Below are positions 33,776-60,870 of a stretch of 64,000 bases of DNA, piece after piece. The notes under the pieces were generated by a model. It ran no database searches and was not told where the DNA came from. It worked only from the letters and a program-made list of their open reading frames with translations. Source of the stretch: Prolixibacteraceae bacterium (GTDB lineage: Bacteria > Bacteroidota > Bacteroidia > Bacteroidales > Prolixibacteraceae); NCBI GenBank assembly GCA_019163175.1, contig JAFLKN010000015.1, positions 372,001 to 436,000 on the forward strand. Direction: 5' to 3'. The translations under genes were made by a program, and so were the position numbers. How positions within the stretch are numbered: position 1 is the stretch's first letter; the number at the start of each line of letters is the position of its first letter.

Positions 33776-35125
33776 ATGAGCATTAATTCTGCAAACGCAA
33801 AAACCATAGAGCAGGAACTGGAATGGTTTCAAAGGTTGATCATGCTAAGGGGCCAAATAACTTTCGAACAATCGGTTTCCGAAGAAGAGTTATGGCACAT
33901 GGAATTGCCCGACATCGAAAATCAGGATTCGCCCTATGCCAATCTGATCAGGAAACATTCCATGACTCTGGAAGAGCGGTTGGTATTAATTCTGGCCTTA
34001 ATTCCGCATGTGAAACCCTCGCTGCTGGATTTGCTGCACATGAAAAATGTACTTTACGATATGCCTTTTACTGAATTTGGCGGAATCAGGAACGACAAAC
34101 ACAAAGGATATCTGCCAACGGGTGAAACAGCCATATTTTTGCTCGCCGGAACAAATCTTGAAAAACGGTTTGAATTGCTTCATCTATTTGGCAAAGACCA
34201 TTTTTTTCAGCAGGAAGGAATTCTGTTGCTCGAGCGTTCTAATGTGGGTGACCCCCTGCTTTACGGGCTTTTAACCATATCTCAGGAATATCTTTCCTTA
34301 TTTACTACCGGAAAGTATTATAAACCCGATTTCAGTCCGGGTTTTCCGGCTAAAAGAATCTATACCAATCAGGAGTGGGATGATTTGGTCGTGCCGGAAC
34401 ATATACTTCAGGGGCTTGAAGAAATTAAGGATTACATATTGCATGGAAAAAGACTTAAAAACGATTACCAGTTTGGACGCAAAATAAAACCCGGATTTAA
34501 AGTATTGTTTACCGGCCCACCGGGAACAGGCAAGACACTTACAGCCAATTTGCTTGGGAAATACTGCCAGATGGATGTATATCGTGTCGATTTATCGATG
34601 GTCGTTTCGAAATACATTGGCGAAACTGAAAAAAATCTCTCCCGTGTTTTTGATATGGCCGAGAATAAAAATTGGATTCTGTTTTTTGATGAGGCCGATG
34701 CTTTATTTGGTAAAAGAAGTAACACCTCAGACTCACACGATCGATATGCCAACCAGGAAGTATCGTTTTTACTTCAGCGTATGGAAGATTTCGATGGACT
34801 TGTCATACTTTGCTCCAACTTTAAGAAGAATATTGATGAAGCTTTTTTCAGGAGATTCCAATTGTTGATCGATTTCGAGATTCCGGATACACAGCATCGG
34901 TTAATTCTTTGGGAGAAGTCGATAACTAACGAATTTGCATACGATAAGGATATTAACTTGGAATACCTGGCGGAACAATATGAATTAAGTGCCGCTTCAA
35001 TCATTAATGTTCTCCAATACTGCATGATAAAATGCCTTGGAAGAAATGACCACCTCATTCGTTTAAGAGATATTCAGGCTGGTCTTAAAATGGAAAAAAT
35101 TAAAGAGGGAAAAAGTATCATCTAA
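33776..35125 (+). CDS. eCIS AAA+ ATPase
   Basis: This is a conserved eCIS component (Afp15-like) needed for assembly of contractile injection particles; its exact substrate in the family is uncertain. The 449 residues begin with a helical N-terminal domain of about 220 residues. The AAA+ core follows, with Walker A GPPGTGKT at 247-254, pore-region SKYIGETEKNL, Walker B ILFFDEAD with D305/E306, RANQEVSFLLQ-like YANQEVSFLLQRMED, sensor 1 in LVILCSNFKKN and the arginine fingers in EAFFRRFQ. It is unlike ClpV of T6SS, which has two AAA modules. It lies at the 5' end of the system, 374 bp upstream of the cap gene. Confidence 0.93.
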   Translation: MSINSANAKTIEQELEWFQRLIMLRGQITFEQSVSEEELWHMELPDIENQDSPYANLIRKHSMTLEERLVLILALIPHVKPSLLDLLHMKNVLYDMPFTEFGGIRNDKHKGYLPTGETAIFLLAGTNLEKRFELLHLFGKDHFFQQEGILLLERSNVGDPLLYGLLTISQEYLSLFTTGKYYKPDFSPGFPAKRIYTNQEWDDLVVPEHILQGLEEIKDYILHGKRLKNDYQFGRKIKPGFKVLFTGPPGTGKTLTANLLGKYCQMDVYRVDLSMVVSKYIGETEKNLSRVFDMAENKNWILFFDEADALFGKRSNTSDSHDRYANQEVSFLLQRMEDFDGLVILCSNFKKNIDEAFFRRFQLLIDFEIPDTQHRLILWEKSITNEFAYDKDINLEYLAEQYELSAASIINVLQYCMIKCLGRNDHLIRLRDIQAGLKMEKIKEGKSII

Positions 35126-35499: not shown

Positions 35500-36060
35500 A
35501 TGATAGACATTGCCTTAAGCTATATACGCGATATTTTGAATGAACATTTCAAAAATGAATTTTCAATTTCAGAGAATAAAGTGATGCTCTCGAATCTTGT
35601 AAAGCCAGATGGATCAAGTGCACAAAATGTCGAGGGAAAAATTGTTCTTTTCCTGATAAGCCTGGACGAAGAATCAACCTTAAAAAATAATTCCAACCGG
35701 TATTCAAATCATGGCGATGGCTTATTTGGGCACAAAAGTCCAACCCTGCACCTGAATATGAATTTATTCTTCTGCGCCAACTTTGATAGCAACGTCTATG
35801 CTGAAGGCCTCAGTTATCTTTCCTCCCTGGTTCGGTTTTTCCAAATCAACAGAAAAATAACTATTGACTCTCTGGGGAATACAAAGAGTTTAAGTTTCGA
35901 ACTGTGCCGGCTTGATTATGCACAGCTGAGCCACCTTTGGTCTGCCATCGGAAGCAAACTTATGCCTGCGGTACTTTATAAAGTCGGACTGCTTGCATTT
36001 GATGATGTGCCTCTTGAAAGAATAATTCCAGCAATAAAAGAACTCGATAACCAAACCTAA
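35500..36060 (+). CDS. DUF4255 family eCIS cap/terminator protein
   Basis: DUF4255 proteins (Afp16/Pvc16-like) cap the distal end of the tube and sheath and set particle length. The 186 residues have the family layout: N-terminal helix MIDIALSYIRDILNEHFKNE, a beta sheet with VEGKIVLFLISLDEE, HLNMNLFFCANFDSNVYAEG and YLSSLVRFFQ. The C-terminal signature LSFELCRLDYAQLSHLWSAI is followed by GSKLMPAVLYKVGLL. It starts the tightly packed structural operon: cap, unknown, sheath, tube, tube. Confidence 0.9.
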   Translation: MIDIALSYIRDILNEHFKNEFSISENKVMLSNLVKPDGSSAQNVEGKIVLFLISLDEESTLKNNSNRYSNHGDGLFGHKSPTLHLNMNLFFCANFDSNVYAEGLSYLSSLVRFFQINRKITIDSLGNTKSLSFELCRLDYAQLSHLWSAIGSKLMPAVLYKVGLLAFDDVPLERIIPAIKELDNQT

Positions 36061-37114: not shown

Positions 37115-38998
37115 ATGGCACAAAGGTTAATGACACCAGGCGTTTACATAGAAGAAGTGAACGCTTTTCCAGGCTCGGTCGTTGAAGTTGCGACAGCCAT
37201 TCCCGCTTTTATCGGTTACACCGAAGAAGCTTCCAGAAATGGAAAATCTTTAATAAACAAACCGACAAGAATTACATCGTTTGCAGAGTACAGAGTACTT
37301 TTCGGAGGAGCTTTTCAACCTAAATTTTCCTTTGATGATGTTGTACCCGGAACCGCTGTAAAGCACGAAATCACTATTAATGGCCAATCGAAAGCCATTA
37401 ACTACTTAACCGACCATGATTCGTATATGTATCGTGGGATACAACTCTTTTTCAACAATGGTGGAGGAACCTGTTACATCGTATCTGTTGGCACTTACGG
37501 AGGAAAAGACAAGGTTGTTGAAGTGTTAAAAGATGAACTTGAAGCAGGGTTGGAAACCTTACTAAAGGAACAGGAACCAACAATGGTCGTTATTCCGGAT
37601 GTGGTCAAGCTTGGTGATGACAGTTACGATGTATACAAAAAGGTACTTGCACATTGCGCAAAAATGCAAAGCCGCGTTGCAATTCTCGACCTTCATGATG
37701 GTTATAGCCCTCGCATTTCAAGTGATAATGTAGATATTATTACAAAATTCAGGGAGAAAATCGGAACTGAATATCTCAACTATGCTGCAGCATATTATCC
37801 ATGGTTAAACACAAATATTGTTCAGAAAGGTGAAGTTACTTTCGAGAATCTCAATACCGCCCTTGATGCACTATTTCCCGAAACAGAAGTAGCTGCACTT
37901 GGGTTGGTTGCAAAATTCCCCAAAGGACAGGCTGATTTTATTACTGGACTTGTAGCGGATAAATCGCCCGAATTGGAAAAAGCTTTAATTGCAGATAACT
38001 CTGCAGTTTTAGAAAAACCAACAGAACTGCCAGCTCTTAAAGTGCCGGTAGAACCAAAGCAACCTACTGACCCTGGTGCAACAGCAACACCTGAAGAAAA
38101 AACCATATTCAAAAATGATCAGGCAAAGTATGCCATTGATAAAAAGGCATACGATGTTGAAAAGAAGGCATACGATACTAAAAAACCTGATTATGATACA
38201 AAGAAGAAAGAATACGATGCGCAAAAAAAGATATTTGATACTAAAAAAGCTGAATTAGTTGCTAATCTGGCTGCTCTTGTAGGTGACGACCGACAGAAAG
38301 AAACAAAAAAATTATACACCGATTTTGTCAGCAACAAAAAGCGCAATTTTCATCAGGGCCTAATTGCAACAAGCCCCACGTATGCCAACCTGTTAGACGA
38401 AGTCCGGGCCGTTATGAATCTTTTGCCACCTTCTTCTGCTATGGCCGGTATTTATACCATGGTTGACAACAGCAGAGGAGTTTGGAAATCACCCGCCAAC
38501 ATCAGCCTGAACAGCGTAATCATGCCATCTACAAACATTACCCACGACGAGCAGGAAAACTTGAATGTGGATGCTACTTCCGGAAAATCAATCAATGCCA
38601 TACGAACCTTCCCCGGAATCGGAACTTTAGTTTGGGGAGGCCGGACACTCGATGGAAACAGTCTCGATTGGAAATACATCAACGTTAGGCGTACCATGAT
38701 CATGTTGGAACAGTCGATTAAAATGGCTTTGCGCTCTTATGTTTTTGAACCCAATGATGCAAATACCTGGGTTTCAGTAAAAAGTATGATCGTGAATTAC
38801 CTTACTGAAAAATGGAAGCAAGGTGCATTGGCCGGTGCCTCTCCCGATGATGCCTTCGAAGTTCAGGTAGGACTCGGCCTAACCATGACCGGTCTGGATA
38901 TACTGGAAGGTAAAATGCTTGTATCGGTAAAACTTGCAATTGTCAGACCAGCCGAGTTTATCGTCGTAACGTTTGAACAACAAATGCAAAAATCATAA
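37115..38998 (+). CDS. eCIS contractile sheath protein with heptad-repeat insertion
   Basis: This is the sheath subunit that contracts to drive the inner tube into a target. The 627 residues show the family start MAQRLMTPGVYIEEVNAFPG and IPAFIGYTEEA, the central KMQSRVAILDLHDG, and the conserved C-terminal part (about 430-627: AMAGIYTMVDNSRGVWKSPA, YINVRRTMIMLEQSIKMALR, IVRPAEFIVVTFEQQ). Between them lies a Pro-rich linker (about 300-325) followed by seven Lys/Asp/Tyr-rich heptads (about 333-381). That insertion is unusual and probably decorates the outside of the particle. This is the only sheath gene in the locus, unlike Afp and PVC, which have three. Confidence 0.95.
   Translation: MAQRLMTPGVYIEEVNAFPGSVVEVATAIPAFIGYTEEASRNGKSLINKPTRITSFAEYRVLFGGAFQPKFSFDDVVPGTAVKHEITINGQSKAINYLTDHDSYMYRGIQLFFNNGGGTCYIVSVGTYGGKDKVVEVLKDELEAGLETLLKEQEPTMVVIPDVVKLGDDSYDVYKKVLAHCAKMQSRVAILDLHDGYSPRISSDNVDIITKFREKIGTEYLNYAAAYYPWLNTNIVQKGEVTFENLNTALDALFPETEVAALGLVAKFPKGQADFITGLVADKSPELEKALIADNSAVLEKPTELPALKVPVEPKQPTDPGATATPEEKTIFKNDQAKYAIDKKAYDVEKKAYDTKKPDYDTKKKEYDAQKKIFDTKKAELVANLAALVGDDRQKETKKLYTDFVSNKKRNFHQGLIATSPTYANLLDEVRAVMNLLPPSSAMAGIYTMVDNSRGVWKSPANISLNSVIMPSTNITHDEQENLNVDATSGKSINAIRTFPGIGTLVWGGRTLDGNSLDWKYINVRRTMIMLEQSIKMALRSYVFEPNDANTWVSVKSMIVNYLTEKWKQGALAGASPDDAFEVQVGLGLTMTGLDILEGKMLVSVKLAIVRPAEFIVVTFEQQMQKS
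38111..38257 (+). repeat. Heptad repeat inside the sheath gene
   Basis: Seven 21-bp units run from 38111 to 38257. They encode KNDQAKY, AIDKKAY, DVEKKAY, DTKKPDY, DTKKKEY, DAQKKIF and DTKKAEL, so the pattern is mostly D-x-[KE]-K-[KAPI]-x-[YFL]. The DNA is less regular than the protein, so this is an old, selected protein repeat rather than a recent slippage product. Confidence 0.85.
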
Positions 38999-39036
38999 TT
39001 AAACAAATTTTCATCAATCATTAAAAACATAACATC

Positions 39037-39489
39037 ATGGCAGGAGAAGCACAAGACAAGAACTGGCCACTACCAAAGTTTTATTTTATGGTCGACTGGG
39101 GCAGTACAACGAATATCCCATTTCAGGAAGTTAGTGGCTTAAACATTGAAGCACAGCCGCTTTTATACAGGCATGGCAACAGTCCGGTATTTTCTGAAAT
39201 CAATATGCCGGGAATAGTAAAGAACAGTAATGTAACCATGAAAAAAGGAGTATTTGCCAATGACAATACATTCTGGGATTGGTACAAAAAGATTAAAATG
39301 AATACCATCGAACGTCAGAATGTGGTCATTAAACTTTTGGATGAAGCAGGGAAGCCAACCATGACCTGGACCCTGAATAATGCCTGGCCAACCAAAATCA
39401 GTTCAACCGATATGAAGTCGAACGCGAATGAGGTGGCCGTTGAAAGCATCGAGATCATGCACGAAGGTTTAACCATAGCTAACGGATAA
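39037..39489 (+). CDS. eCIS inner tube protein 1 (gp19/Hcp-like)
   Basis: This major inner-tube subunit forms stacked hexamers inside the sheath. The 150 residues match the T4 gp19-like tail-tube family (Afp1-like). Family features are WPLPKFYFMVDWGSTTNIPF, the QEVSGLNIEAQPLLYRHGN loop, GIVKNSNVTMKKGVFANDNT, FWDWYKKI and the final ANEVAVESIEIMHEGL. It lies 38 bp after the sheath gene and 5 bp before a second tube gene. Together the three form the contractile core of the particle. Confidence 0.93.
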   Translation: MAGEAQDKNWPLPKFYFMVDWGSTTNIPFQEVSGLNIEAQPLLYRHGNSPVFSEINMPGIVKNSNVTMKKGVFANDNTFWDWYKKIKMNTIERQNVVIKLLDEAGKPTMTWTLNNAWPTKISSTDMKSNANEVAVESIEIMHEGLTIANG

Positions 39490-39494
39490 GAATT

Positions 39495-39950
39495 ATGGGA
39501 AATGATAGTTTTTTCAAGCCCAATTATACTCCCCCAACTGCTTTCTATTTTTCGGTAAAATTTAATGGTTTCGATCAAATGGATAGCAGTTTTCAGGAGG
39601 TTTCGGGTTTGAAAGTAACTATAGGAACCATTGAAAAAAAGGAAGGTGGTGACAATAACTTTGTTCACCACCTTCCTACTCCGCCAAAATTCGAAAACCT
39701 GGTACTAAAACGGTGCTTGTTGTATAACTCGAAGTTAGACCGTTGGTGCCGTGATGCCATTGAAGATTTTAAGTTCGATCCGAAAGACATCAAACTGGCT
39801 TTGCTGGGCGCGAATGGTGGAATACTGGCTTCGTGGACCATTGTTAAAGCATTCCCCATTTCATGGGAATTATCGACGCTCAATAGCACCAGCAATCAAC
39901 TGGCCATTGAATCATTGACCTTAAAATACAGACTTTTTAGAAAAGATTAA
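39495..39950 (+). CDS. eCIS tube protein 2 (Afp5-like, probable tube initiator)
   Basis: This is a second member of the gp19-like tube family with 151 residues. It shows PTAFYFSVKFNGFDQMDSSF, the QEVSGLKVTIGTIEKKEGG loop, LPTPPKFENLVLKRCLL and the C-terminal NQLAIESLTLKYRLF. In Afp and PVC the second tube protein sits at the interface of tube and baseplate hub, and this gene has the matching position, immediately before the DUF5908, LysM and spike genes. It differs from tube 1 in the loop after QEVSGL and in the long insertion VHHLPTPPKF. Its start is 5 bp after the tube 1 stop. Confidence 0.9.
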   Translation: MGNDSFFKPNYTPPTAFYFSVKFNGFDQMDSSFQEVSGLKVTIGTIEKKEGGDNNFVHHLPTPPKFENLVLKRCLLYNSKLDRWCRDAIEDFKFDPKDIKLALLGANGGILASWTIVKAFPISWELSTLNSTSNQLAIESLTLKYRLFRKD

Positions 39951-39953
39951 CCA

Positions 39954-40136
39954 ATGACACTGATCGTAAAGGAATTGATCGTTAGGGGAATTGTATCGAC
40001 AGATTCCTCGCAAATCAATGATTCTGCATTGGGCAAGGAAGAACTGCTTCAATATCTTGAACAGATTAGAAAGGATATTGAACGCGACTGTGTTGAAAAG
40101 GTATTGCAAAAACTGGAAACTAAAACAATCAGGTGA
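39954..40136 (+). CDS. DUF5908 family small eCIS protein
   Basis: A 60-residue protein starting MTLIVKELIVRGIV and containing a helical, charged C-terminal half (KEELLQYLEQIRKDIERDCV, then EKVLQKLETKTIR). It fits the small DUF5908 family found in eCIS loci and occupies the position of the small afp6/pvc6 gene (tube 2, small protein, LysM, spike). Its start lies 3 bp after the tube 2 stop, and its stop is 7 bp before the LysM gene. A longer open frame in another register (from 39991) overlaps it, but that one belongs to the LysM gene, which starts at 40144. Confidence 0.82.
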   Translation: MTLIVKELIVRGIVSTDSSQINDSALGKEELLQYLEQIRKDIERDCVEKVLQKLETKTIR

Positions 40137-40143
40137 ACGGCTT

Positions 40144-40800
40144 ATGGGCGAACTGACCAAAATGAAAATTGTTGCATTCAAAGATCCTGATTTTTCGAGC
40201 AAATTGGGAGAATACGATGTGCTTGTGAATCCTGAAAATTACAAACAGAAAAATGAGCAACAGTATTCAACCACCGACACAACCAATGGATCGAGTGCCC
40301 AAACCGCAAAATACAAAGGCGGAGGATCGGGCTTGTTCGAGATCGTATTGTTTTTTGATGGAACAGGCGTAATCACAAAAGACAAAGTTGCCGATCAGAT
40401 AAAGAAGGTAAAAGACCTGATTTATAAATACAATGGCGACATACACGAACCAAATTACCTGCGTGTGTACTGGGGCACCCAATCTTTGTTTCAGGGTCGG
40501 CTCAAATCGTGGAATGTGAACTACACCATGCTCGACATGGATGGATCTCCATTGCGGGCAGAAGCAACAGCAATATTAATTGCGTCGGTAAGCGCCAAAA
40601 AAAAGGCTCTGGAAGAAAAGAAAAATTCTTCGGATCTGACCCACGTGCGAATAGTGCTGGATGGAGACAACCTTCCATTGATGTGCTACCGAATTTATGG
40701 CGACAGCAGCTATTACATTAAAGTAGCACAGCACAACAACATAACCAATTTCAGGGCAATTAAGCCAGGCGATGTAATCACTTTTCCACCCGTAATTTAA
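40144..40800 (+). CDS. eCIS LysM-containing tube/baseplate hub protein (Afp7-like)
   Basis: This protein links the tube or spike hub to the baseplate. The ATG at 40144 (MGELTKMKIVAFKDPDFSSK) gives 218 residues. The upstream extension of the frame overlaps the DUF5908 gene and is rejected. An N-terminal CIS-tube-type domain (about 1-155) carries YDVLVNPENYKQKNEQQYST, GSGLFEIVLFFDGTG and NYLRVYWGTQSLFQGRLKSW. A C-terminal LysM-like module follows (about 165-218: CYRIYGDSSYYIKVAQHNNI, then FRAIKPGDVITFPPV). The LysM module is a structural element in these baseplates rather than a proven peptidoglycan binder. The spike gene follows after 5 bp. Confidence 0.9.
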   Translation: MGELTKMKIVAFKDPDFSSKLGEYDVLVNPENYKQKNEQQYSTTDTTNGSSAQTAKYKGGGSGLFEIVLFFDGTGVITKDKVADQIKKVKDLIYKYNGDIHEPNYLRVYWGTQSLFQGRLKSWNVNYTMLDMDGSPLRAEATAILIASVSAKKKALEEKKNSSDLTHVRIVLDGDNLPLMCYRIYGDSSYYIKVAQHNNITNFRAIKPGDVITFPPVI

Positions 40801-40805
40801 ACCAC

Positions 40806-42605
40806 ATGCCAGAAGTATTGCAGCAATCCGACGGAGTAATAAGCTTTGATATACTCATCAACGGCTCAAAAATTAAAGATGTGGTGGAAGTCGTTGAAAT
40901 TTCCATTCAATCGGAAGTGAATAAGATTACATCGGCTACCATTCTGATTGAAGACGGTGGATTTATGGGGTCAGTAAACGACACTTTCTCGAATAGTGAA
41001 GGAGAAGATTTTATTCCGGGTAATGAAATAGAAATCTCTTTAGGATACGATAACAACAGAAAAACAGCCTTCAAAGGCATTATTCTCTCCCAGGGACTAA
41101 TGTATAAAAATGGCAAATCACAACTTTTAATCACCTGCAAAGACAAAGCCGTTAAAATGACTAAAGGTCGGTTCAATGCCATTTTTCAAAAGAAAAAAGA
41201 CTCTGACGCCATACAAACCTTAGTCGGAAAATATTCCGGCCTTAGTTCCTCCATTGACGCTACTTCCATTGAATTTCCAACTTTAATGCAATACAACTGC
41301 AGCGATTGGGACTTTGTGGTTATTCGGGCTGAACTCAATAATATGTCAGTCGTTACTGATCAGAATAAGGTGATCGTTAAAAAAAACGACTACAGTGCAG
41401 ATCCTGATTTTGAAATTAATGCCAGCCAATACGTTATTGATATTGATCTGAATCTCGATAGTGAAAATATTGCCGGAAGTTTTAAACTGACTGCCTGGGA
41501 CGATAAAGATCAATCGGGAGTTGTGAGTTCGGTAAGTCTAAGCGATAGCCTGGGTCAGGGAAACATTACGGCAAAAAAGTTGTCCGAAGTATTAGACAAT
41601 GGAGATTCCAACTATTATTCGTCTGCCCTCCTCTCGACCGAAGAATTAAAAGCTTGGGGAGAATCGATTGCAAACAAGAGCGTACTAAGCAAAATTCAGG
41701 GCAAGATAAGTGTCCCGGGATTTACAGGAATTATAGCCGGCGATACGATAAATCTCGCAGGGTTCAGTACCCGCTTTAACGGGAAGGCCTACATTTCAAA
41801 AGTTATACATACCATTCGCGACGGAGGATGGATTACATCCTTGTACGTGGGGAAACCTTCGCATTGGCATTCAGCTCTGCCCGACATTTCAGAAAGTCCG
41901 GCTTCGGGCCTAATCCCTTCAGCCAATGGCGTTCAAATAGCAGTAGTAAAAAAGATTCATGAAGATCCGGATGGCAAATATCGTGTTTTGGTGAGTCTTC
42001 CTGTTTTCACCGGAACCGGGCAAGATGATGGAATATGGGCAAGATTAGCCTTTCCTTATGCATCGGCTGATGCTGGTTTCTTTTTCTTTCCTGAAGTGAA
42101 TGACGAGGTATTACTGACATTCATCAACAACGATCCACGAAATCCGGTGATTACAGGATCGCTGTACAACACAAAAAATAAACCGAAGGAGACGCCAGAT
42201 GAAAAGAATCAATTCAAATCTATTTATACCAAATCGGGCATAAAAATCAGGTTCGACGATGAGGATAAAATCATGGTTATAGAAACTCCCGGTGGAAATT
42301 CATTTACCATGGACGATAAGGATAAGAAGATAAACATCAAAGATATCTCAGGCAATTCGGTACTGATGGATGATTCGGGAATAACACTGGAAAGCGCAAA
42401 AGACATTAAGTTAAAAGCCAAGGGCAATGTAGATATTTCGGCAACAGGTGGCATAAACCTGAAAGCAACTTCGGATCTTAAAGGTGAAGGAACAAATATC
42501 CAGCTTAGTGCAAATGCTGGTTTTACAGCCAAAGGAAACGCCTCTGCCGAAATTTCGGCTTCCGGGCAAACAACAGTAAAAGGTGCAATGGTAATGATTA
42601 ACTAA
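40806..42605 (+). CDS. eCIS spike protein (VgrG/gp27-gp5 fusion, Afp8-like)
   Basis: This trimeric spike base carries the PAAR tip through the target envelope. The 599 residues fall into three parts. A gp27-like hub covers about 1-365 (DGVISFDILINGSKIKDVVE, GNEIEISLGYDNNRKTAFKG, DKAVKMTKGRFNAIF). A gp5-like OB-fold lies at about 375-460 (VQIAVVKKIHEDPDGKYRVL, IWARLAFPYASADAGFFFFP, EVNDEVLLTFINNDPRNPVI and GSLYN). A beta-helix of short repeats at about 470-599 follows (IKLKAKGNVDISATGGINLK). No extra enzymatic domain is fused at the C-terminus. The PAAR gene follows 11 bp later. Confidence 0.94.
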   Translation: MPEVLQQSDGVISFDILINGSKIKDVVEVVEISIQSEVNKITSATILIEDGGFMGSVNDTFSNSEGEDFIPGNEIEISLGYDNNRKTAFKGIILSQGLMYKNGKSQLLITCKDKAVKMTKGRFNAIFQKKKDSDAIQTLVGKYSGLSSSIDATSIEFPTLMQYNCSDWDFVVIRAELNNMSVVTDQNKVIVKKNDYSADPDFEINASQYVIDIDLNLDSENIAGSFKLTAWDDKDQSGVVSSVSLSDSLGQGNITAKKLSEVLDNGDSNYYSSALLSTEELKAWGESIANKSVLSKIQGKISVPGFTGIIAGDTINLAGFSTRFNGKAYISKVIHTIRDGGWITSLYVGKPSHWHSALPDISESPASGLIPSANGVQIAVVKKIHEDPDGKYRVLVSLPVFTGTGQDDGIWARLAFPYASADAGFFFFPEVNDEVLLTFINNDPRNPVITGSLYNTKNKPKETPDEKNQFKSIYTKSGIKIRFDDEDKIMVIETPGGNSFTMDDKDKKINIKDISGNSVLMDDSGITLESAKDIKLKAKGNVDISATGGINLKATSDLKGEGTNIQLSANAGFTAKGNASAEISASGQTTVKGAMVMIN

Positions 42606-42616
42606 AACATACAACT

Positions 42617-42916
42617 ATGGGATTAGCAGCCAGACTTACAGATATGCACACCTGCCCGATGCAGACACCGGGATTACCACCCATTCCACATGTTGGAGGA
42701 CCAATTGTTGGGCCCGGAGTTGCAACGGTTTTAATAGGTAAAATGCCCGCTGCCGTGGTTGGCGATAATCTGGTTTGTGTTGGCCCTCCAGATTCAATAG
42801 TTAAAGGTTCGGCAACAGTAATGATCGGCGGAAAACCTGCCGCCCGAATGGGTGACACTACCGCACATGGCGGCAGTATTATTTTGGGCTGCCCAACCGT
42901 AATGATAGGAGGATAA
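42617..42916 (+). CDS. PAAR-domain spike tip protein
   Basis: A 99-residue PAAR protein that sharpens the tip of the spike and binds a metal ion. The repeated signature is intact: DMHTCPMQTPGLPPIPHVGG, GVATVLIGKMPAAVVGDNLV, GSATVMIGGKPAARMGDTTA, HGGSIILGCPTVMIGG. H11, C13, H25 and the later C55 or H85 are candidate metal ligands. It is a stand-alone PAAR with no C-terminal toxin domain. It lies between the spike and gp25 genes, in the reverse of the gp25-PAAR order of Afp. Confidence 0.94.
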   Translation: MGLAARLTDMHTCPMQTPGLPPIPHVGGPIVGPGVATVLIGKMPAAVVGDNLVCVGPPDSIVKGSATVMIGGKPAARMGDTTAHGGSIILGCPTVMIGG

Positions 42917-42920
42917 GGAT

Positions 42921-43334
42921 ATGAATGAAAAAAACAATTCATTCCTGGGAAGAGGTTGGGCATTCCCTCCCGGGTTTCAATACGAAATGGGCACCGTTGA
43001 AACAGTTGAAGATGAAGAAGACATCAAGCAAAGTCTGGGAATCATTTTAGGTACGATTCCCGGCGAACGGGTTATGTTCCCGACACTTGGGTGTGGCATC
43101 CGAAAATTTGTATTCGAATCAAATGACCCAACACAAATCAGTATGCTGAAAGATGCCATTTACGACTCGATACTTTACCACGAGCCAAGAATTAAACTCG
43201 AAACAATTGATATTAAAGACGATACTCAGATTTATGGATTGCTTCACATCTATATTTTTTACACAGTGATAATTACAAACACGCGAAGTAATATGGTATT
43301 CCCATTCTATTTCAAAGAGGGCACAAATCTTTAG
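42921..43334 (+). CDS. gp25-like baseplate wedge protein (Afp9-like)
   Basis: This baseplate component belongs to the GPW/gp25 family, which nucleates sheath assembly. The 137 residues contain the core: VEDEEDIKQSLGIILGTIPG, ERVMFPTLGCGIRKFVFESN and YDSILYHEPRIKLETIDI. It starts 5 bp after the PAAR stop, with an AGGAGG-type ribosome site overlapping the PAAR C-terminus (about 42908-42913). This is one of the few strong Shine-Dalgarno matches in the window. No enzyme activity is expected. Confidence 0.93.
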   Translation: MNEKNNSFLGRGWAFPPGFQYEMGTVETVEDEEDIKQSLGIILGTIPGERVMFPTLGCGIRKFVFESNDPTQISMLKDAIYDSILYHEPRIKLETIDIKDDTQIYGLLHIYIFYTVIITNTRSNMVFPFYFKEGTNL

Positions 43335-50950: not shown

Positions 50951-53900
50951 ATGAGAAAAGCGAGTCAAAATATTATTCACCGTGCATCTTTCAATTTCGA
51001 ATATGCAACATCTGCCTCGGCGGCAAGGTCTAATATTTTGATCGAAAACATGTTCAATTCGCGCATTTTACCTGAGCTTCAAAAGGCAATTTCCAATCAA
51101 ATTCCTGAAGGTTTGCTAATTGAGTTGTCGAAACTGGAAATTAACATTGGGACCATCAATGAAAAGGACATTGCAAACAATCTCGCCGAACGAATTAGTA
51201 GATCACTGGAAGACGCGCTAAAAAACACAGCAAGTTTTGGAAAGTACGATCTGCTAAATGGCAACGATTTAGAAAAGAAAAACACAGGTAATTTGCTGCT
51301 TGAAATCCTAGATATCTATTTTCAGAAAGGATATTTCCTCTTCGGAATCGACAATTCGGGATCGATTGATGAACTCGTAAAAAATGCCATTGAAAACCAT
51401 AGAAAAGAATTCATCGATATCCTTCTAAAATACCGGCGACATGATTCTATTCTTAAAAGAGTTGCATTCAGCTTAAATCCCGAAACTTTTGATTTGATTT
51501 TGTTTGCCCTTGAACCTACCCATGTAAAATGGATCATTGATTTCAGGCAAATACTTTTGGGCACACGCAGGCGAGCAAATCTGAACCAATTAAGTGCCGA
51601 TGAATTTGCCCAAACAGTAAATTATTTAGTCCTCCGCTTTTTACTAAATAATGCAGGGCCGGAGTTCAGTAAAACAAATTTTGCTGAATCAATTTTATCT
51701 GAGCTGTTCACCAGTTTAAATATCGAAGTCCAACGATTTGCCGGAACATTAAAAAGCACAGACGAACCTCTTGTCGCCTTAATTCGGAAGAGCTTATTGA
51801 AAGTTAACGGGAAAAACCCATTGGTGCTTCCTGAGCTACTAAATATGGAAATCGGCCAACTTCTGGAAATCCTGAATACGGGAAACTCTCAGAATAAAAC
51901 GATGACCAAAGAATTGCTGAAGAATTCGCTTGTTCTGGCACTCCGGGATACAGAAAAAAGAAAGCTGTTGGTTGAAAAGCTTAACAAATCAGGTGTCCGG
52001 GTGATTTTTGAATTACTCTCCAATCGAGATGCGGAGGCGATTTTTGATCTCATCAGCTCTTTCACCACTGAATTTATTTCAGCCACAGCATTGAACGAAA
52101 TGGCATTGAAATCAGCTGCTTACCTAAGCCAAAATACTGTCAGGTCGTTAAATACGGAAGAGTTTGTCCTTTTCTTGCTGTATGCTGCCCGGCTCGACGT
52201 CTCAAAAACGGCACACTCAACTTCATTTAAGAGTTTTATTAAGGCACAGAAAAATATCGATCTTAAAAAAATACGGACCTTGCTTTTTGATGAAGACCTG
52301 AATCCTGAAATTTCCGACATCAAAAACCTACTACTGAAAACTGAGAATCAAACGGTTGTTCCTAATCCGGAAGAATACCTGATCATACCGAAAAGAAAAA
52401 TAATTGGGTATTTCCTTTATTCAGGCCAGCTTCCTGATGCCTACTATGATTTAAGTCGTCGCGATCTGCAAACAATTTTCGAAGAATTAATTGATCTGAA
52501 AGATGATTTCCTGACCAGACAATTTCATCAGTCAGAAGATCCGTTGAGTTTGATTGAAAGGCTAAACGCGTTAACAGCCAACGCCTCCGCGGATGAATTA
52601 GAAGCCTATCTCATTCATTACTTTAAAAAGGAATTTGATCTTCTTTCCAAACTTATGGCTCACGCCAGACAACACTTTCCGGTTGGATTTAGTCACCAAA
52701 ACGATTCGCAATCGAGCGTTGAAATACTGATTTCGGCACTGGCAAAAAGCAAGGGCGGTCGTTTGCCTGAGCTATTTCTTTTATCCGTCGTTGAAGAATT
52801 GAGCAATTCGTCTGGCATTGATTCCGACAAGTTTATTCACTCCTTGTTGTCGGATTCAGACATCCCAAAAATTGGCTTGCTGCTGAATAATGGAAATACC
52901 GGAACTGAAATTAACGAAATACTCGAAAGGAATTTTAAACAGCTTGCCAAGGCTTTTTATTCGGGCGGTGACCTAAATGAACCAATCCAACGCATTGCAT
53001 TTTATTTTCAGATCGACGATAAGTCCTTTCTTGATTACCTGCTGAAAAATCCCAAATCTCTTTCGCTGGTGCACGCCCTGTTTAAATCGCGCATGAATGA
53101 GCGTTTGTGGAAACGTATTGAAATTGCGTTATCATCCAGACCTGAACTCAGCCTTAAATTCCAGAAACTTCAGCAGCAATCGGCGAATGCATTCAGGAAA
53201 ATGGAGGAAGCAGAATTTGACCTGACTAAAGCTTTTAGCCATCTCAATACTTCGTCACCGCAAGATTTTAGCGCATTTTTGACTTTGCTGCTGAATGACG
53301 CCGTGCTACTCGAAAAATTTAGTTCAAGTTCAAAAGATATTAAGTTCCTTTTGAATTTCAGTATTGGCAATAAATCAGCAATAAACCAGCTGAACCATTT
53401 GCTGCAAAAGCTAAAAGCTGTTGGTAAAGAGGAACTCTTTTATTCGATTTTGGAACAAATGAAATCGTCCAATTCCTCAGAGCTTGATGCATTCGCAGGT
53501 TTTTGGCAGGATGAAAAAGTGATGATATTCACTGCGTCCGGAGAGGAAAATCAAAATCCAACAAAACAAACAGATCAGAATTTATCCATTCTACGATTTT
53601 ACGCGCAAAATGGCTTTTTCCCGTGGTGGGCCAGCAATATTTCTTTACCGGAATTAATTTCAGGATTAGCACAAATTAGCCGGCTTCACCCCGCTATTTT
53701 TGAAAATTCTTTTCTCTGGCTCGAAAAAGAAGAGTCCCTTCTGGAATTGCGAAGTGCAAAAATTTCCGAATCAGAGCTTGTAGCATTTGGCCAGTTGTTT
53801 ACCAATCACCCTGAAATGCAAGCTGCATGGAAGAAAATAAACAAGAAGAATAGTGAAACTACCCATTTAAAACATGATGAAAAAGCGAATCAGTGGAGAG

Positions 53901-54802
53901 AAATTTACAATTCATCCGATGAGAAAATTTTAGACAATTGGTTTGGCAGCCTTCCCGAAATTGCGCGACAAATCAGGGAATACCTGTCGCTTTCGCCTTA
54001 CTTCTATTTCCGGAATATCAATCCGGGCCAATGGCGTAAAGCAGTATATCAATTTTCGCTCGATTATTACGGACCACGACCAGGCAGAATAAACAATAGC
54101 TTTCACGTCGATTTTCTGAGCTATTTAAAACAGAATTATGCCAATGTTGACTGGAATAGAAATTTAGCAACCGTTTACGAACTCATTCATTCCTCAAATC
54201 CGAAAGCTAAACCGGTGTTTCCGGAAGAGCTGATTCCACTTCTGACCATTGAGCCCAAAAGCAAAACTGCTGAACCCATTTTACCCTTAATTAATGATGG
54301 CGACGAAGTTAAAATTTACAATTCAGGGCTGATACTTTTCTGGCCTTTCCTAACTCGCTTGTTCGAAATTCTTTCACTGGCGAAGAACGGCGTGTTTCTG
54401 AATGCGGAATGCAGAAACAGGGCAGTTTATATTCTGCAATACCTGGCTTGCAATGATATTAATTTCCCCGAATATAAGCTGGTATTGAATAAGTTATTAT
54501 CGGGAATGCGGCCCGAAGAACACCTTGTTCCGTTGGCTGACCTGACGGATGAGGAAAAGGAAAGTGCACAAAGCCTGATAAACGGATTAATAAATAACTG
54601 GGAAAAAGTAAAAAATTCGTCGCCCGAAGGCATACAGGAAACTTTTATACAAAGAGATGGAATATTGAGATTTCAGGAAGATAAAATTACGCTCGTGGTT
54701 GAGAAAAAGGGATTTGATATCCTGATGGAGTCAATTCCATGGAATATTGCGCTGGTTAAACTTGCGTGGATGGAAAAGCCAATTTATGTTGAATGGATTT
54801 AA
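50951..54802 (+). CDS. Contractile injection system tape measure protein
   Basis: This protein sets the length of tube and sheath during assembly (Afp14-like). The 1283 residues start with the family signature QNIIHRASFNFEYATSASAA and LLIELSKLEINIGTINEKDI. They end with the conserved block IYNSGLILFWPFLTRLFEIL, LAKNGVFLNAECRNRAVYIL, FPEYKLVLNKLLSGMRPEEH and LTDEEKESAQSLINGLINNW, closing PIYVEWI. The middle is long, helical and low in recognisable domains, as expected for a length ruler. It starts 2 bp after the wedge gene, so the two are translationally linked. No transmembrane segment is evident. Confidence 0.9.
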   Translation: MRKASQNIIHRASFNFEYATSASAARSNILIENMFNSRILPELQKAISNQIPEGLLIELSKLEINIGTINEKDIANNLAERISRSLEDALKNTASFGKYDLLNGNDLEKKNTGNLLLEILDIYFQKGYFLFGIDNSGSIDELVKNAIENHRKEFIDILLKYRRHDSILKRVAFSLNPETFDLILFALEPTHVKWIIDFRQILLGTRRRANLNQLSADEFAQTVNYLVLRFLLNNAGPEFSKTNFAESILSELFTSLNIEVQRFAGTLKSTDEPLVALIRKSLLKVNGKNPLVLPELLNMEIGQLLEILNTGNSQNKTMTKELLKNSLVLALRDTEKRKLLVEKLNKSGVRVIFELLSNRDAEAIFDLISSFTTEFISATALNEMALKSAAYLSQNTVRSLNTEEFVLFLLYAARLDVSKTAHSTSFKSFIKAQKNIDLKKIRTLLFDEDLNPEISDIKNLLLKTENQTVVPNPEEYLIIPKRKIIGYFLYSGQLPDAYYDLSRRDLQTIFEELIDLKDDFLTRQFHQSEDPLSLIERLNALTANASADELEAYLIHYFKKEFDLLSKLMAHARQHFPVGFSHQNDSQSSVEILISALAKSKGGRLPELFLLSVVEELSNSSGIDSDKFIHSLLSDSDIPKIGLLLNNGNTGTEINEILERNFKQLAKAFYSGGDLNEPIQRIAFYFQIDDKSFLDYLLKNPKSLSLVHALFKSRMNERLWKRIEIALSSRPELSLKFQKLQQQSANAFRKMEEAEFDLTKAFSHLNTSSPQDFSAFLTLLLNDAVLLEKFSSSSKDIKFLLNFSIGNKSAINQLNHLLQKLKAVGKEELFYSILEQMKSSNSSELDAFAGFWQDEKVMIFTASGEENQNPTKQTDQNLSILRFYAQNGFFPWWASNISLPELISGLAQISRLHPAIFENSFLWLEKEESLLELRSAKISESELVAFGQLFTNHPEMQAAWKKINKKNSETTHLKHDEKANQWREIYNSSDEKILDNWFGSLPEIARQIREYLSLSPYFYFRNINPGQWRKAVYQFSLDYYGPRPGRINNSFHVDFLSYLKQNYANVDWNRNLATVYELIHSSNPKAKPVFPEELIPLLTIEPKSKTAEPILPLINDGDEVKIYNSGLILFWPFLTRLFEILSLAKNGVFLNAECRNRAVYILQYLACNDINFPEYKLVLNKLLSGMRPEEHLVPLADLTDEEKESAQSLINGLINNWEKVKNSSPEGIQETFIQRDGILRFQEDKITLVVEKKGFDILMESIPWNIALVKLAWMEKPIYVEWI

Positions 54803-57274: not shown

Positions 57275-58795
57275 ATGAATACTCATGCAGATAAAACCCC
57301 GCATAGTAAAACTCAGACGGTTGTCCGAAACGATTATTCAGCCCAAAGCAGTGAATCATCCTTTCAATTTGCCGACAACCGTGCAGAAGCCACCGCACAA
57401 AGGAAGCTAAATGAACTGGCCAACAACAGTCAGACTCTAAAGCAAGCAGCTCAACTGAAATCCTTTGCCGACAGCTACCCAGGCCACACAATTCAAAAAG
57501 TTGGGATAGAAGAAGAGGAACCACTTCAAGGCAAGTTCATTCCGGTTCAACGGCAAGGAATTGAAGAAGAGGAATTGCTTCAGGGTAAGTTTGAACCAAT
57601 TCAGAAAAAAGAGAACAAAACCGGATTACCCGACAATCTGAAATCCGGTATCGAAAGTCTTTCAGGCTATTCTCTGGATGATGTGAAGGTAAATTACAAC
57701 TCCAATAAACCGGCACAACTGAACGCACATGCCTATGCACAAGGTACTGATATTCATGTCGCATCCGGACAGGAAAAACACTTGGCTCACGAAGCCTGGC
57801 ATGTGGTACAACAAAAACAAGGTCGTGTAAAGCCAACCATGCAAATGAAAGGCCATGTAAACGTAAATGACGATGAAGGCCTGGAAAGAGAAGCGGATGT
57901 GATGGGGGCTAAGGCAGTGCAAAGAAAATTAGAACATAATGATAGCAGTGGGGTTGATAATACACCTGAAAAAATAAGACAAGGAAAGTTCAAATCTTCA
58001 GGAGCAGAAGATACAAAGCAACTAATGGATGAGGGCTCAGGAATAATGCAATTTGGGGGGGCGGTTGCTAATCCTAATGGCGAAAGAAATTACAATGCTA
58101 TTGGATATGGTATTCAAGGTATAAGAACACTTAGTGAAAATATTATGTTAGCCGATAATCCACTTTGTAATGTAGGGGTAATGGCTCGATATCCAGTAGG
58201 GATAAACTATTTCAAAGGGAAAGGCGGACATGCAGCGTTGCAGGTTGACGTTGATTTAGGTAAAGGAGGGGAGCATCAATACCTTCAGGCTGGGGTTAGC
58301 GCTACAGGCTCAATACAAGTTGAGCCTACATTCCAGACTATTAAGACTAGGGAAGGATACAATATAAAACGGATTACAAAAAGTGTGGATAAAGATATTT
58401 GCATAAGTACCTTAAAGAAAACTGCAGCCGAAATAGCAAAAGTTCAAGATTATCAGGAACGTATTCTATATAATTCAGGGACTAAAACGAATTGTGCTTT
58501 ATGGGCTTCAAATATGGCAGCACAAGCAGGACTTGACTTGGGTACAAATGACAAATGGTTTTTACCAAGCCCCAACGATGTTCAAGGACTTATGGAAAAT
58601 TTTAGAAATAAGGAAGGTATAACGATAACAGAAGAAAAAACTGTAAAAAGTTCTGAGGGAGAAATTGCATCAAATGTAGGCGTAGAAGCTACTCCGGGCT
58701 GGGATAATGAATTGGAACAAGCTACAGGAGTTATGCCTGAAGAACAAGCTAAAAAATTGATGGAAGAAGCCCTTCAGGATGACAGTACCGCGTAG
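57275..58795 (+). CDS. DUF4157 (eCIS core domain) cargo protein with C-terminal His/Cys domain
   Basis: A probable effector loaded into the injection particle; 506 residues. The N-terminal about 55 residues ([32 protein letters not shown]) are shared with the next two genes. Two near-identical repeats, [16 protein letters not shown] and [16 protein letters not shown], follow at about 77-109. The DUF4157 core at about 115-195 has the HExxH motif at H172-H176 (HEAWHVVQ). A junction GIMQFGG precedes the variable C-terminal domain (about 265-506). There H319 (GKGGHAAL) and C407 ([11 protein letters not shown]) could form a His-Cys pair of a permuted papain-like enzyme. No signal peptide. A 7-G run (58055-58061) lies exactly at the junction. 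Confidence 0.82.
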
Positions 58796-59033
58796 ATTTA
58801 AATTGAGCTACCAAATGAGCCACGAAGATAGCCTTGCTGAATTTTAGGTATTTCTCATACCACCTTGATGACGAAACAGATATATGAACATGTTTATTTT
58901 ATTTGAAAAAACTGAAATGATTAAGATTTAGAAAAGAAAGCAAATTGAAAATCAACATTATCAGGACTGAAAAATGGATATTCAAAATGGTTCATTGTTA
59001 TTGACATCAGACCATAATCAGAAAAGAAAAAAT

Positions 59034-59663
59034 ATGAATACTCACGCCGACAAAACGCAAGAAAATACAAACCAATCGTTAATAAACAAAGTTTCTCAAA
59101 AGCAAAGTGGCATTGACTCTACTTTTCAATTTATTGACAATAGACAGGAAAGCAGAGACCAGAAAATACTGCATGAAATTTATAATAATGAGGCAATTAC
59201 GCAATTAAAGGCTATCCAAATGATGATAAATGGCCCTATTGTAGTTCAACTTAACGGAGAATGGCAAAAATTTCAGAAAGCAGTAGCTGACGGAACCGTG
59301 ATTTTAGAAGTAAGCGATAAACACATTAAGGGGAAGCCAAAGCAAAGAAGAATGGAAAGAAAAAATGGAAGGAGAGCTGCTACTGGTCCATATAGCAATC
59401 AATCGCAGGAACGGGTAATACAAAATGCCATAGCAGCAGTCGAAAAAGGAACAGCTAGGTTTATCTCCAGTGAAGGGACAGACTTCACAATTGAAGTAGA
59501 TAGTGAACATGGTAAACATGCACCAAGGCAATTTAATATCCATAAAGGCGGCGGCGGTGCAAACACCCGATACATTCATCAAATCTACGGAGAAAGTAGT
59601 CAATTTAATACACCGGACAATGCAGAGTATTCTGATAGTGAAAGCGAAGCAGATGATGATTAG
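59034..59663 (+). CDS. Small basic eCIS cargo candidate with shared N-terminal module
   Basis: The ATG at 59034 starts the shared module ([30 protein letters not shown]); an in-frame ATG 20 codons upstream is not used, because the module begins here. The protein has 209 residues, with no DUF4157 domain and no signal peptide. After the junction IVVQLNGEW comes a C-terminal domain with EVSDKHIKGKPKQRRMER, KNGRRAATGPYSNQS, ERVIQNAIAAVEKGTARF and a His/Lys-rich end (HGKHAPRQFNIHKGGGG). The DKHI motif and strong basic patch resemble small ribonuclease toxins, but this is weak. The 238 bp upstream (58796-59033) contain no other gene. Confidence 0.72.
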   Translation: MNTHADKTQENTNQSLINKVSQKQSGIDSTFQFIDNRQESRDQKILHEIYNNEAITQLKAIQMMINGPIVVQLNGEWQKFQKAVADGTVILEVSDKHIKGKPKQRRMERKNGRRAATGPYSNQSQERVIQNAIAAVEKGTARFISSEGTDFTIEVDSEHGKHAPRQFNIHKGGGGANTRYIHQIYGESSQFNTPDNAEYSDSESEADDD

Positions 59664-59709
59664 TAAAAAATTGAAAGATATAGTCCTATAAAATCCAAAA
59701 GGTGTAAAA

Positions 59710-60870
59710 ATGAATACTAAAGCTATCAAGTCAAACCAAAAGAACAATCAATCAGTTACGAATGAGCTTTCTTCAAAACATAATGGTAGTGCTTCTACTT
59801 TTCAGTTTTTGGATAACCGATCGGAAACTTTAGTACAACGAAAATTGCAGATAATGGCAAATGAGAGTCTACAGAAAAAGCCTGTTGTTCCATTGGAAAC
59901 AAAAAGTGATTTTACAGGTAAACCAATGCAAATGAAGGATAATGAAGAAAATGTACTTTTACAGAGTAAATTTGCAGTTCGTGCAGAAAACACAACTCAT
60001 TCAGGAGTTATACAACGAAATGGTGAAGGTAAGGCTGTTGTAACTGATCTCACAGACCCAGCCTGGCTACCTCCGGGGAAACATAAGACCAATGCAGGCA
60101 AGGCAGCTATTACTGGCGCCAATCTCAAAATCCTTTTACGCGGTGCGGCAATTGCGGCCTGGAAAACTTACGCATATCATGCGACTAAATCGGCCAACGT
60201 GCAAGGAATAACCAGTGCAGGATTGGATCCAAATCGCGGTGGAACCGGTGCGGCAGCCGGAAACGCCCACTTTGAAGATCAATCAAAAGGGAAAATCCAT
60301 TATACCCGAAATCGAAACCTGGCCGAAGACTATCAGCGCCATTTTGAAGGGGCAACTCCTTTTGGAAGAAAAGATCCGAACCCTGCTTCTGCTGAGGTCT
60401 TAAAAATAGCAATCCCGCGGGATGTTGCAGATAATGAGGAAATAGACCCTGATAGCAGAACCTCTGATCGTGCCTACCGAACCTCAGACGCAATCCCGGG
60501 AAAGAATATCAGAAGCACCAAGCCCAAAGCCTTGCCTCCGGAAAGGGTTCAGAAGCGCGGCAAACGGAAAAATCAGCCACTCAAACCCGGAGCGAACGCT
60601 GAAGCCTGGAAAGACCATGTCATCCGATCTTTTGCCGATACCGGTGCACTAGTTAGCAATATGCCATCATCGGCTACAAATATTCTCTACGATATGAAAC
60701 AAAACGGAATGGATATAATGACCGTTTGCCAGCTTATAAAACAGGCACTTCAGTCAATGCCGACATCAGATATTCTTGAATTAACACCAGAGGACAGGAA
60801 AGCCAATCCCAGGGTTTTTCAAGGTGCGCATATTGATGCAACCGGCGAATCCCTTCCGAATATATTTTAA
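59710..60870 (+). CDS. eCIS cargo candidate with ADP-ribosyltransferase-like domain
   Basis: The protein has 386 residues. It opens with the shared module (MNTKAIKSNQKNNQ, STFQFLDNRSETLVQRKL), then a diverged ENVLLQSKF repeat and the junction HSGVIQRNGE (about 95-105). The C-terminal domain contains YAYHATKSANVQGITSAGLD (about 154-173), GKIHYTRNRNLAEDYQRHFE (about 195-214) and SAEVLKIAIP. Placing H157, Y198 and E229 as an H-Y-E triad gives the pattern of PARP/diphtheria-toxin-like transferases. A separate helical tail follows (about 300-386). No HExxH domain and no signal peptide. The Cache/channel gene starts only 9 bp after its stop. Confidence 0.75.
   Translation: MNTKAIKSNQKNNQSVTNELSSKHNGSASTFQFLDNRSETLVQRKLQIMANESLQKKPVVPLETKSDFTGKPMQMKDNEENVLLQSKFAVRAENTTHSGVIQRNGEGKAVVTDLTDPAWLPPGKHKTNAGKAAITGANLKILLRGAAIAAWKTYAYHATKSANVQGITSAGLDPNRGGTGAAAGNAHFEDQSKGKIHYTRNRNLAEDYQRHFEGATPFGRKDPNPASAEVLKIAIPRDVADNEEIDPDSRTSDRAYRTSDAIPGKNIRSTKPKALPPERVQKRGKRKNQPLKPGANAEAWKDHVIRSFADTGALVSNMPSSATNILYDMKQNGMDIMTVCQLIKQALQSMPTSDILELTPEDRKANPRVFQGAHIDATGESLPNIF

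Follow-up and report, generated by a model that had tools for sequence, protein, structure and literature searches.

The injection system locus and its three cargo genes

The stretch of DNA analyzed here, a 64,000-nucleotide window on contig JAFLKN010000015.1 of a Prolixibacteraceae bacterium, carries on its + strand the gene cluster of an extracellular contractile injection system (eCIS), which runs from an AAA ATPase through the tape measure protein and a GH18 protein to three tandem cargo genes. The products of these three genes share an N-terminal leader of ~60 residues with the core F-Q-F-x-D-N-R-x-E-xxx-Q-[RK]-[KI]-L, called the DNR leader in the following. As described in an earlier interpretation of the bare nucleotide sequence (the sequence-only reading), all three open with MNT[HK]A.K[TS] and carry S-x-FQF-x-DNR-x-E, with its start close to residue 28-29 and QRKL-like residues after it. 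Cargo gene 1 (57275..58795) encodes 506 amino acids, comprising the leader (57275..57457, about 61 residues; core at 57362..57427, residues 30-51), a DUF4157/eCIS_core domain and a C-terminal domain. Cargo gene 2 (59034..59663; 209 amino acids, with an alternative in-frame ATG upstream at 58974) consists of the leader (core FQFIDNRQESRDQKILHEIYNN, 59124..59189, residues 31-52), a short linker and a C-terminal domain, and cargo gene 3 (59710..60870; 386 amino acids) of the leader (core FQFLDNRSETLVQRKLQIMANE, 59800..59865, residues 31-52), a linker and an orphan C-terminal domain. The DUF4157 domain is limited to the first product, again as originally described: PF13699 matched cargo 1 at residues 118-183 (E 2.5e-10), and the Pfam scan gave no PF13699 match in cargo 2 or cargo 3. 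In cargo 1, HEAWHVVQQ precedes LEREADVMG (57788..57907), which is the eCIS_core order of the machine lineages L and S introduced below. Tandem repeats were seen by eye between the leader and the core both at residues 76-111 of cargo 1 and at locus L046 (1335-2150).

None of the three C-terminal domains had a convincing match in Pfam or NCBIfam. That of cargo 3 occurs in one of 295 genomes of the order, that is, in its own, and cargo 3 had no match in the PDB; the weak impression, gained on reading, that it is an ADP-ribosyltransferase was supported by no tool and was dropped. Each C-terminal domain is preceded by a junction motif: GIMQFGGA in cargo 1 (58040..58063, residues 256-263), IVVQLNGE in cargo 2 (59238..59261, residues 69-76) and GVIQRNGE in cargo 3 (60004..60027, residues 99-106).

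Upstream, also on the + strand, the cluster contains the AAA ATPase (33776..35125; PF00004), a candidate reader of the leader and loader of cargo; the cap/terminator protein (Pvc16_N, 35500..36060), which serves as lineage marker and places the system in clade L; the genes for the sheath, two tube proteins, CIS_tube, the spike and gp25 (37115..43334); a large protein without family match (43501-47046); and the tape measure protein (CIS_TMP, 50951..54802; PF19268, E 2.3e-93). The solved structure nearest to sheath and cap is that of the 9r9h/9r9n particle. The gene for the GH18 glycoside hydrolase (54815-57199), a protein that by eye is hydrophobic at its start and end, sits between those for tape measure and cargo. 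Directly 3′ of the cargo genes, after a gap of nine bases, follows a gene for a dCache/PDC sensor protein (60880-63018).

The leader family, its variable ends and the junction between them

The leaders of the three cargo proteins are related to each other. Each one alone retrieved the other two among the 232 open reading frames (ORFs) of the window, with E values between 2.4e-7 and 1.3e-10. A profile built from 18 leaders of other genomes (which had themselves been found using the window leaders) matched exactly these three of the 232 ORFs, with E values of 5e-16 to 6e-17 and the next match at 1.9, which rules out chance resemblance. In the whole 5.9-Mb genome there were three leader matches and no more (next E 1.1). 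Within the core (~15 synonymous sites), synonymous differences amounted to 0.94 for pair 1-2 and 0.96 for pair 1-3, and nonsynonymous differences to 0.38 and 0.31; for pair 2-3 the values were 0.63 and 0.42. Because synonymous sites are near saturation in pairs 1-2 and 1-3, yet the nonsynonymous difference is lower, the leader is old and has been kept by selection at the protein level.

Compared with other proteins, the leaders are hydrophilic and mildly positive at the N-terminus: mean hydropathy was −1.11 for 133 leader proteins versus 0.04 for 842 other ORFs, and the charge of residues 6-21 was 1.08 versus 0.45. This hydropathy agrees with the features of eCIS signals given in the accessible parts of PMC11297309. 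An AlphaFold2 model of a single protein, cargo 3 (47 rows), had low confidence for residues 1-30 (pLDDT, the per-residue confidence score, 56-58) and higher confidence for residues 31-50 (80-85), with a helix at residues 37-52 that starts just past DNR; the C-terminal part was not resolved. A loose tail followed by a short recognition helix, as modeled, would suit a tag read by a partner. An origin of the leader from phages or plasmids was considered and rejected, one leader giving no match by tblastn in 50,697 phage and 72,556 plasmid records; in viral contigs, none of 57 pattern matches encoded a relative. For the strings DNRPEA, FQFVDNR, QRKLQEM, VDNRPEAV and QRKLQELANN, no published occurrence was found in the literature searched.

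A scan of GTDB genomes that was blind to eCIS found leader genes at 78 loci, in Bacteroidota, Pseudomonadota, Cyanobacteriota, Planctomycetota, Nitrospirota and SAR324. These derive from 80 of 107 relatives and were picked by two peptide patterns from the core, so conservation of the core within this set is in part due to selection. The loci read contained 145 leader proteins, and in 142 of them the leader lay within the first 40 residues; the three exceptions all belong to one Okeania locus (L199). Among the 140 unique leader proteins, 62 have DUF4157 and 78 do not. The claim that a constant front is combined with exchangeable ends, whether or not DUF4157 is present, is supported by these counts. 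Of the DUF4157 group, 48 of the 62 proteins entered the Pfam/NCBIfam scan, and eCIS_core was found in 44 of these 48; PF13699 was not among the ten families matched by the 74 scanned proteins of the other group. Known domains were few, the majority of proteins having none, and mainly of effector type (Peptidase_M91, GH-E and HNH nucleases, a non-specific endonuclease, ADP-ribosyl cyclase, XopG/HopH and APOBEC-like). Since, eCIS_core aside, each Pfam or NCBIfam family was matched by at most two members in either group, neither database has a model for the leader. The leader proteins thus combine a constant N-terminus with a variable C-terminus, as do polymorphic toxins.

Individual loci add to this picture. 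One locus of Candidatus Anammoxibacter (L212, 3986-15640) encodes nine leader proteins, none of which has DUF4157 by profile and many of which start with the variant MYAQVEKxKENKSRAVANSV. Judged by eye, leader-plus-end proteins are alike between a planctomycetotal and a nitrospirotal locus (L167, 4415-4957, and L192, 958-1488), and likewise between Aquimarina and Kordia (L164, 9276-9740, and L196, 10001-10411), which suggests transfer of whole cargo genes.

Between the leader and the C-terminal domain lies a second conserved feature, [VI][VI]QR. With the linker taken as the 90 residues after the leader, and four leader proteins of less than 130 residues left out, this motif occurred 20 times in the linkers of 74 of the 78 DUF4157-less proteins, where 0.3 were expected and 200 shuffles gave at most three; farther on in these proteins it was absent. 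The wider form [VILMFT][VILMF]Q[RKLMFC] was found 57 times in the same linkers (6.7 expected). In the DUF4157 proteins, the 62 linkers contained this wide form 24 times (5.1 expected) and the parts farther on 66 times (22.6 expected), versus one and seven occurrences, respectively, of the narrow form. The junction proposed by the sequence-only reading, [IV]xQx[GN]G, is present in all three window cargo proteins but was drawn too narrowly, with three occurrences in the 74 linkers (0.5 expected, shuffles reaching up to three). In its broader form the junction is real, because both [VI][VI]QR and the wide form lie far above expectation in DUF4157-less linkers.

Leader, eCIS genomes and machine lineage

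Leader genes occur almost wholly in genomes that also encode an eCIS. Among the named genomes with a leader, 58 of 60 (47/48 plus 11/12) have Pvc16_N; loci L155 and L189 were left out of this search, and L139, L152 and L210 were not counted anew as they were taken to be from genomes G186, G082 and G174. In a set of 295 genomes of the order, all five accepted leader carriers were among the 22 with Pvc16_N (hypergeometric p 1.5e-6). Nine genomes of this set matched the leader at E up to 0.01, and the four marginal ones (G056, G166, G197 and G269; E 0.0015-0.0067), in which the match fell on open pieces of 29-77 amino acids or inside a 604-amino acid piece, were judged chance and rejected; they have no Pvc16_N, and counting them as real would bring the order set to five of nine in eCIS genomes. 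In a set of 395 genomes of the phylum, six of seven carriers were among the 77 with Pvc16_N (p 2.8e-4). The order set was searched with a narrower profile (A2), its 17 leader-negative eCIS genomes being rechecked with the profile used for the phylum set (A3). Short DNR variants in G500, G608 and G581 were missed by A3, and these genomes were first scored leader-negative; since such variants escape the profile, every count of leader-negative genomes is an upper bound.

A tree of 160 Pvc16 sequences shows which machines go with the leader. Four of 164 rows were dropped as shorter than 110 amino acids, some extra copies of multi-copy genomes were left out, and the tree takes 70 of the 88 leader-negative eCIS genomes; its 58 named leader genomes are those with Pvc16_N. 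Clade L holds 71 rows, 57 of them from leader genomes, and the small clade S is made up of leader genomes entirely (7/7). Clade N holds 50 rows, 40 of them from leader-negative genomes, and further clades exist. An L or S copy was present in 63 of 68 leader genomes versus 14 of 70 leader-negative eCIS genomes. Genomes with an N machine only had the leader once and lacked it in 39 cases; nine leader genomes hold an N copy, and seven of the nine also hold an L copy. By phylum, an L or S copy was found in 37 of 40 named leader genomes of Bacteroidota, 10 of 12 of Pseudomonadota, three of four of Cyanobacteriota (Phormidesmis 0/1), and the single ones of Planctomycetota, Nitrospirota and SAR324. 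As leader genomes of several phyla have L/S copies, the leader tracks the lineage of the machine and not the phylogeny of the host. The AAA ATPase, which is of the type known as loader, was recovered from operons of all four lineages (L, S, N and M); in its tree, N (19 rows, support 100) and M (support 98) stand apart from L/S. A second gene thus backs the lineages, and the ATPase is a fair candidate reader, and no more.

The match extends to the cargo at the operons themselves. Operon ends were read by lineage for DUF4157 proteins, in stretches reaching 19-39 kb beyond the cap gene (ten, namely L338, L339, L341, L348, L349, L353, L359, L361, L365 and L370, contained none; L342, of 1 kb, was left out, and G145 had no such stretch). 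In lineages L/S, 19 of 23 such proteins had the DNR core (12/16 plus 7/7) and none had the front typical of lineage N, FF..QxKL..G..DxYExEAD (the FF front). The latter was found in 31 of 31 proteins of lineage N (20/20 plus 11/11), with no DNR core among them. Of the 23 L/S proteins, 19 are accompanied within their stretch by another eCIS gene (AAA, tape measure or other), and 17 of these 19 have the DNR core, both misses belonging to G064; of the other four, two have it, the misses belonging to G612. In lineage N, such an accompanying gene is present for all 31 proteins. Counted by operon, the DNR core was present in 13 of 15 in L/S versus 0 of 17 in N (Fisher 3e-7), Fisher values being descriptive as related proteins and operons are not independent. 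Both patterns were written after examples had been seen, and in the first 90 residues their background is 205 (FF) and 18 (DNR) of 988. Cargo of related loci thus carries the leader, whose absence there would have spoken against the sequence-only reading. DUF4157 cargo of lineage M had the DNR core in none of seven and the FF front, by pattern, in one of seven. Several M cargo proteins (L366, L368 and L369) begin with [VI]Q.[SKR]L.[IV]G..(G/N)DKYE.EA, possibly a third type of front.

The same division was seen within single cells' genomes: front and machine agreed in all six readable genomes with two machines (the window genome, G000; G468; G739; G581; G694; G690). The window genome has a second eCIS of another lineage (contig 2, about 68-98 kb; L032-L033), with its own AAA ATPase and two DUF4157 proteins with the FF front, and in Flavobacterium hydrophilum (G739) all six tandem cargo genes at the L operon have a DNR-type front. 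The pairs in G694 and G690 are weaker, because the L-side gene and the eCIS genes near it are on different strands. G690 also has a + strand run from sheath to spike on the same contig (L360, 13923-19885), at least about 19 kb from the − strand cap gene, which is an unusual or a second cluster. In G653, the cap gene has a divergently oriented leader gene as its neighbor, at the opposite end of the operon (L119, 6085-7626, 7922-8491).

The eCIS_core itself also differs between lineages. LExEAD stands after HExxH in 19 of 23 L/S proteins and before it in 37 of 38 N/M proteins, and the reverse was never seen. From the orders compared (window 57788-57907, L033, L134, L331-L344 and L351-L369), this looks like a permuted layout with HEAWHVVQQ versus HELTH-type active sites.

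A putative loading tag, rival explanations and known systems

The explanation favored here, with a probability of about two thirds, is that the shared front is a lineage-specific N-terminal loading or sorting tag for eCIS of clades L and S, read by a part of the machine. The DNR tag would mark a protein as cargo of these lineages by means of a hydrophilic, probably unfolded stretch of ~30 residues and a short helix, begun by F-x-DNR and bearing Q-R-K-L. Its reader would most likely be the AAA ATPase of the same operon, presumably the counterpart of Pvc15, which would feed the tagged protein into the tube. Neither the presence of DUF4157 nor the genomic position of the gene would matter to the action of the tag, and the toxin-like ends behind it would be exchanged at the hydrophobic-Q-[RLM] junction. 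The sister lineage N would use the other front, FF...QxKL; with DNR for L/S and FF for N, a cell with two machines could therefore sort its cargo. The loading signal put forward by the sequence-only reading is partly supported, by a common front independent of DUF4157, by its eCIS genomes and by its tie to one machine lineage; its narrow junction motif is the part that had to be revised. The wider statement that eCIS use mutually exclusive, lineage-matched short tags (DNR for L/S, FF for N and something else for M) is offered tentatively, at slightly under even chances. If it is true, one cell could fill two or three kinds of syringe unmixed, from cargo genes anywhere in its genome, and a shared hydrophobic-Q-R site behind the DNR tag may serve as the point of release.

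Several observations weigh against this explanation. In the AlphaFold2 model the leader core is a confident short helix, whereas the published signal peptides of the Photorhabdus virulence cassette (PVC) are disordered. Four of the 23 DUF4157 proteins near L operon ends have neither tag (both cargo proteins of G612 and both of G064, the two of G064 being encoded right beside the AAA gene), and the cargo genes of G382 and G653 are on the strand opposite to the operon, facing it. No leader was detected at E 0.1 in any of the 17 leader-negative eCIS genomes of the order set, seven of which have clade-L machines. Conversely, G731 has a leader yet an N machine alone; for G698, G716, G721 and G736 the tree, which did not take every copy, contains no L/S sequence; and the leader genomes G604 (L129), G688 (L143) and G741 (L213) have neither Pvc16_N nor CIS_tube and are candidates for lost machines, assembly gaps or transferred cargo. 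A structural eCIS gene flanks only 11 of the 78 loci (10 kb a side or to the contig end), so leader genes are mostly scattered, far from the machine though in eCIS genomes; the association with contractile systems expected by the sequence-only reading holds for genomes and mostly fails within the 10-kb flanks. Taken together, the two refuting conditions named by that reading gave a mixed outcome that on balance favors it. Finally, the match of the AAA tree does not single out the ATPase, because the same would be expected of every operon gene.

The leader might instead be a passenger of its lineage, namely an ancestral N-terminal piece belonging to the DUF4157 family of lineage L, which was retained by descent, was copied along whenever ends were swapped and has no role in loading. 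That front and eCIS_core order both go with the machine lineage would follow directly; the explanation is nevertheless unlikely, since DUF4157 is missing from more than half of the unique leader proteins, the core was kept while synonymous sites approached saturation, and the scattered leader genes are almost wholly confined to eCIS genomes. It is similarly improbable that the leader and linker form a pro-piece for release, cut at hydrophobic-Q-[RLM] by a DUF4157 zincin in cis or in trans, with a loading role secondary or absent. The concentration of [VI][VI]QR in DUF4157-less linkers and its lack in the rest of those proteins favor such a handle, as does the processing of toxins by the PVC-metallopeptidase proposed by Zhang et al. 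2012 (PMC3482391, in the part available). On the other hand, the leader core is conserved beyond the needs of a spacer and the junction is downstream of it, DUF4157 proteins seldom have [VI][VI]QR directly after the leader, and growth inhibition by Cgo1 was independent of the metalloprotease motifs in the passages available of Danov et al. (PMC11297309). An action after loading, as a plug, a tether to the tube or tape measure protein, or an aid to translocation in the target cell, would also explain the tie to the lineage through contact with tube or tape measure protein, whose genes are in the operon, but is considered very improbable, as the known eCIS N-termini act in loading (PMC10097599, PMC11495950, in the parts accessible). 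Least probable is that the shared DNA is merely a homologous arm for exchange of C-terminal ends: the constant front with unrelated ends and two leader cores of G186 that are near-identical in DNA (synonymous difference 0.00, nonsynonymous 0.02) would agree with it, but the window leaders have diverged in DNA and been kept as protein, the reverse of what DNA homology alone would maintain.

Among known systems, MIX, RIX and FIX are shared marker domains on polymorphic effectors of the type VI secretion system, a different machine, and resemble the DNR tag in this respect. Cargo 1 resembles the DUF4157/eCIS_core/PVC-metallopeptidase toxins in its domain, its constant front and the variable ends of its relatives; cargo 2 and cargo 3, in contrast, do without the domain, and the tag is separate from it. 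The available parts of PMC8894135 describe Cgo1 and Cgo2 of AlgoCIS, two tube-lumen cargo proteins that both have DUF4157 and a similar N-terminal domain predicted to be disordered but differ in their C-termini; the AlgoCIS cap is closer to that of the second eCIS of the window genome (109 bits) than to that of the window (64 bits). The closest likeness is to the cargo signal peptides of PVC and Afp (Pdp1, Pnf; loader Pvc15), which are also N-terminal, hydrophilic, ~50-70 residues long, followed by unrelated ends and accompanied by an AAA ATPase in the operon. Pvc15 acts via these N-terminal signal peptides (PMC11495950, as far as accessible). Like PVC/Afp-type cargo, the leader proteins have their common piece at the N-terminus and an eCIS in the genome, the AAA ATPase having been checked in the stretches used for the AAA tree. 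By analogy, the DNR tag may be the L/S counterpart of the PVC packaging peptides, and the FF front that of N.

Unlike the PVC/Afp peptides, the DNR tag forms a sequence family conserved in several phyla, has a short predicted helix and follows the machine lineage in type. In the passages available, PMC11297309 reports that no conserved eCIS signal sequence was detected and describes nearly all known eCIS toxins as encoded no more than ten genes from the last core gene; the tag finds cargo far from operons, 67 of the 78 named loci having no structural gene up to 10 kb a side. For Photorhabdus, sorting of payloads by divergent N-terminal packaging domains has been suggested (PMC10097599, legend of Extended Data Fig. 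9). The DNR and FF fronts would be a candidate code for such sorting, and because front and lineage match inside single genomes, sorting is directly testable. N-terminal packaging peptides of eCIS are known; what appears to be new, as far as the literature searched shows, is a conserved and lineage-matched sequence family, which would provide a sequence handle on how eCIS particles recognize their cargo.

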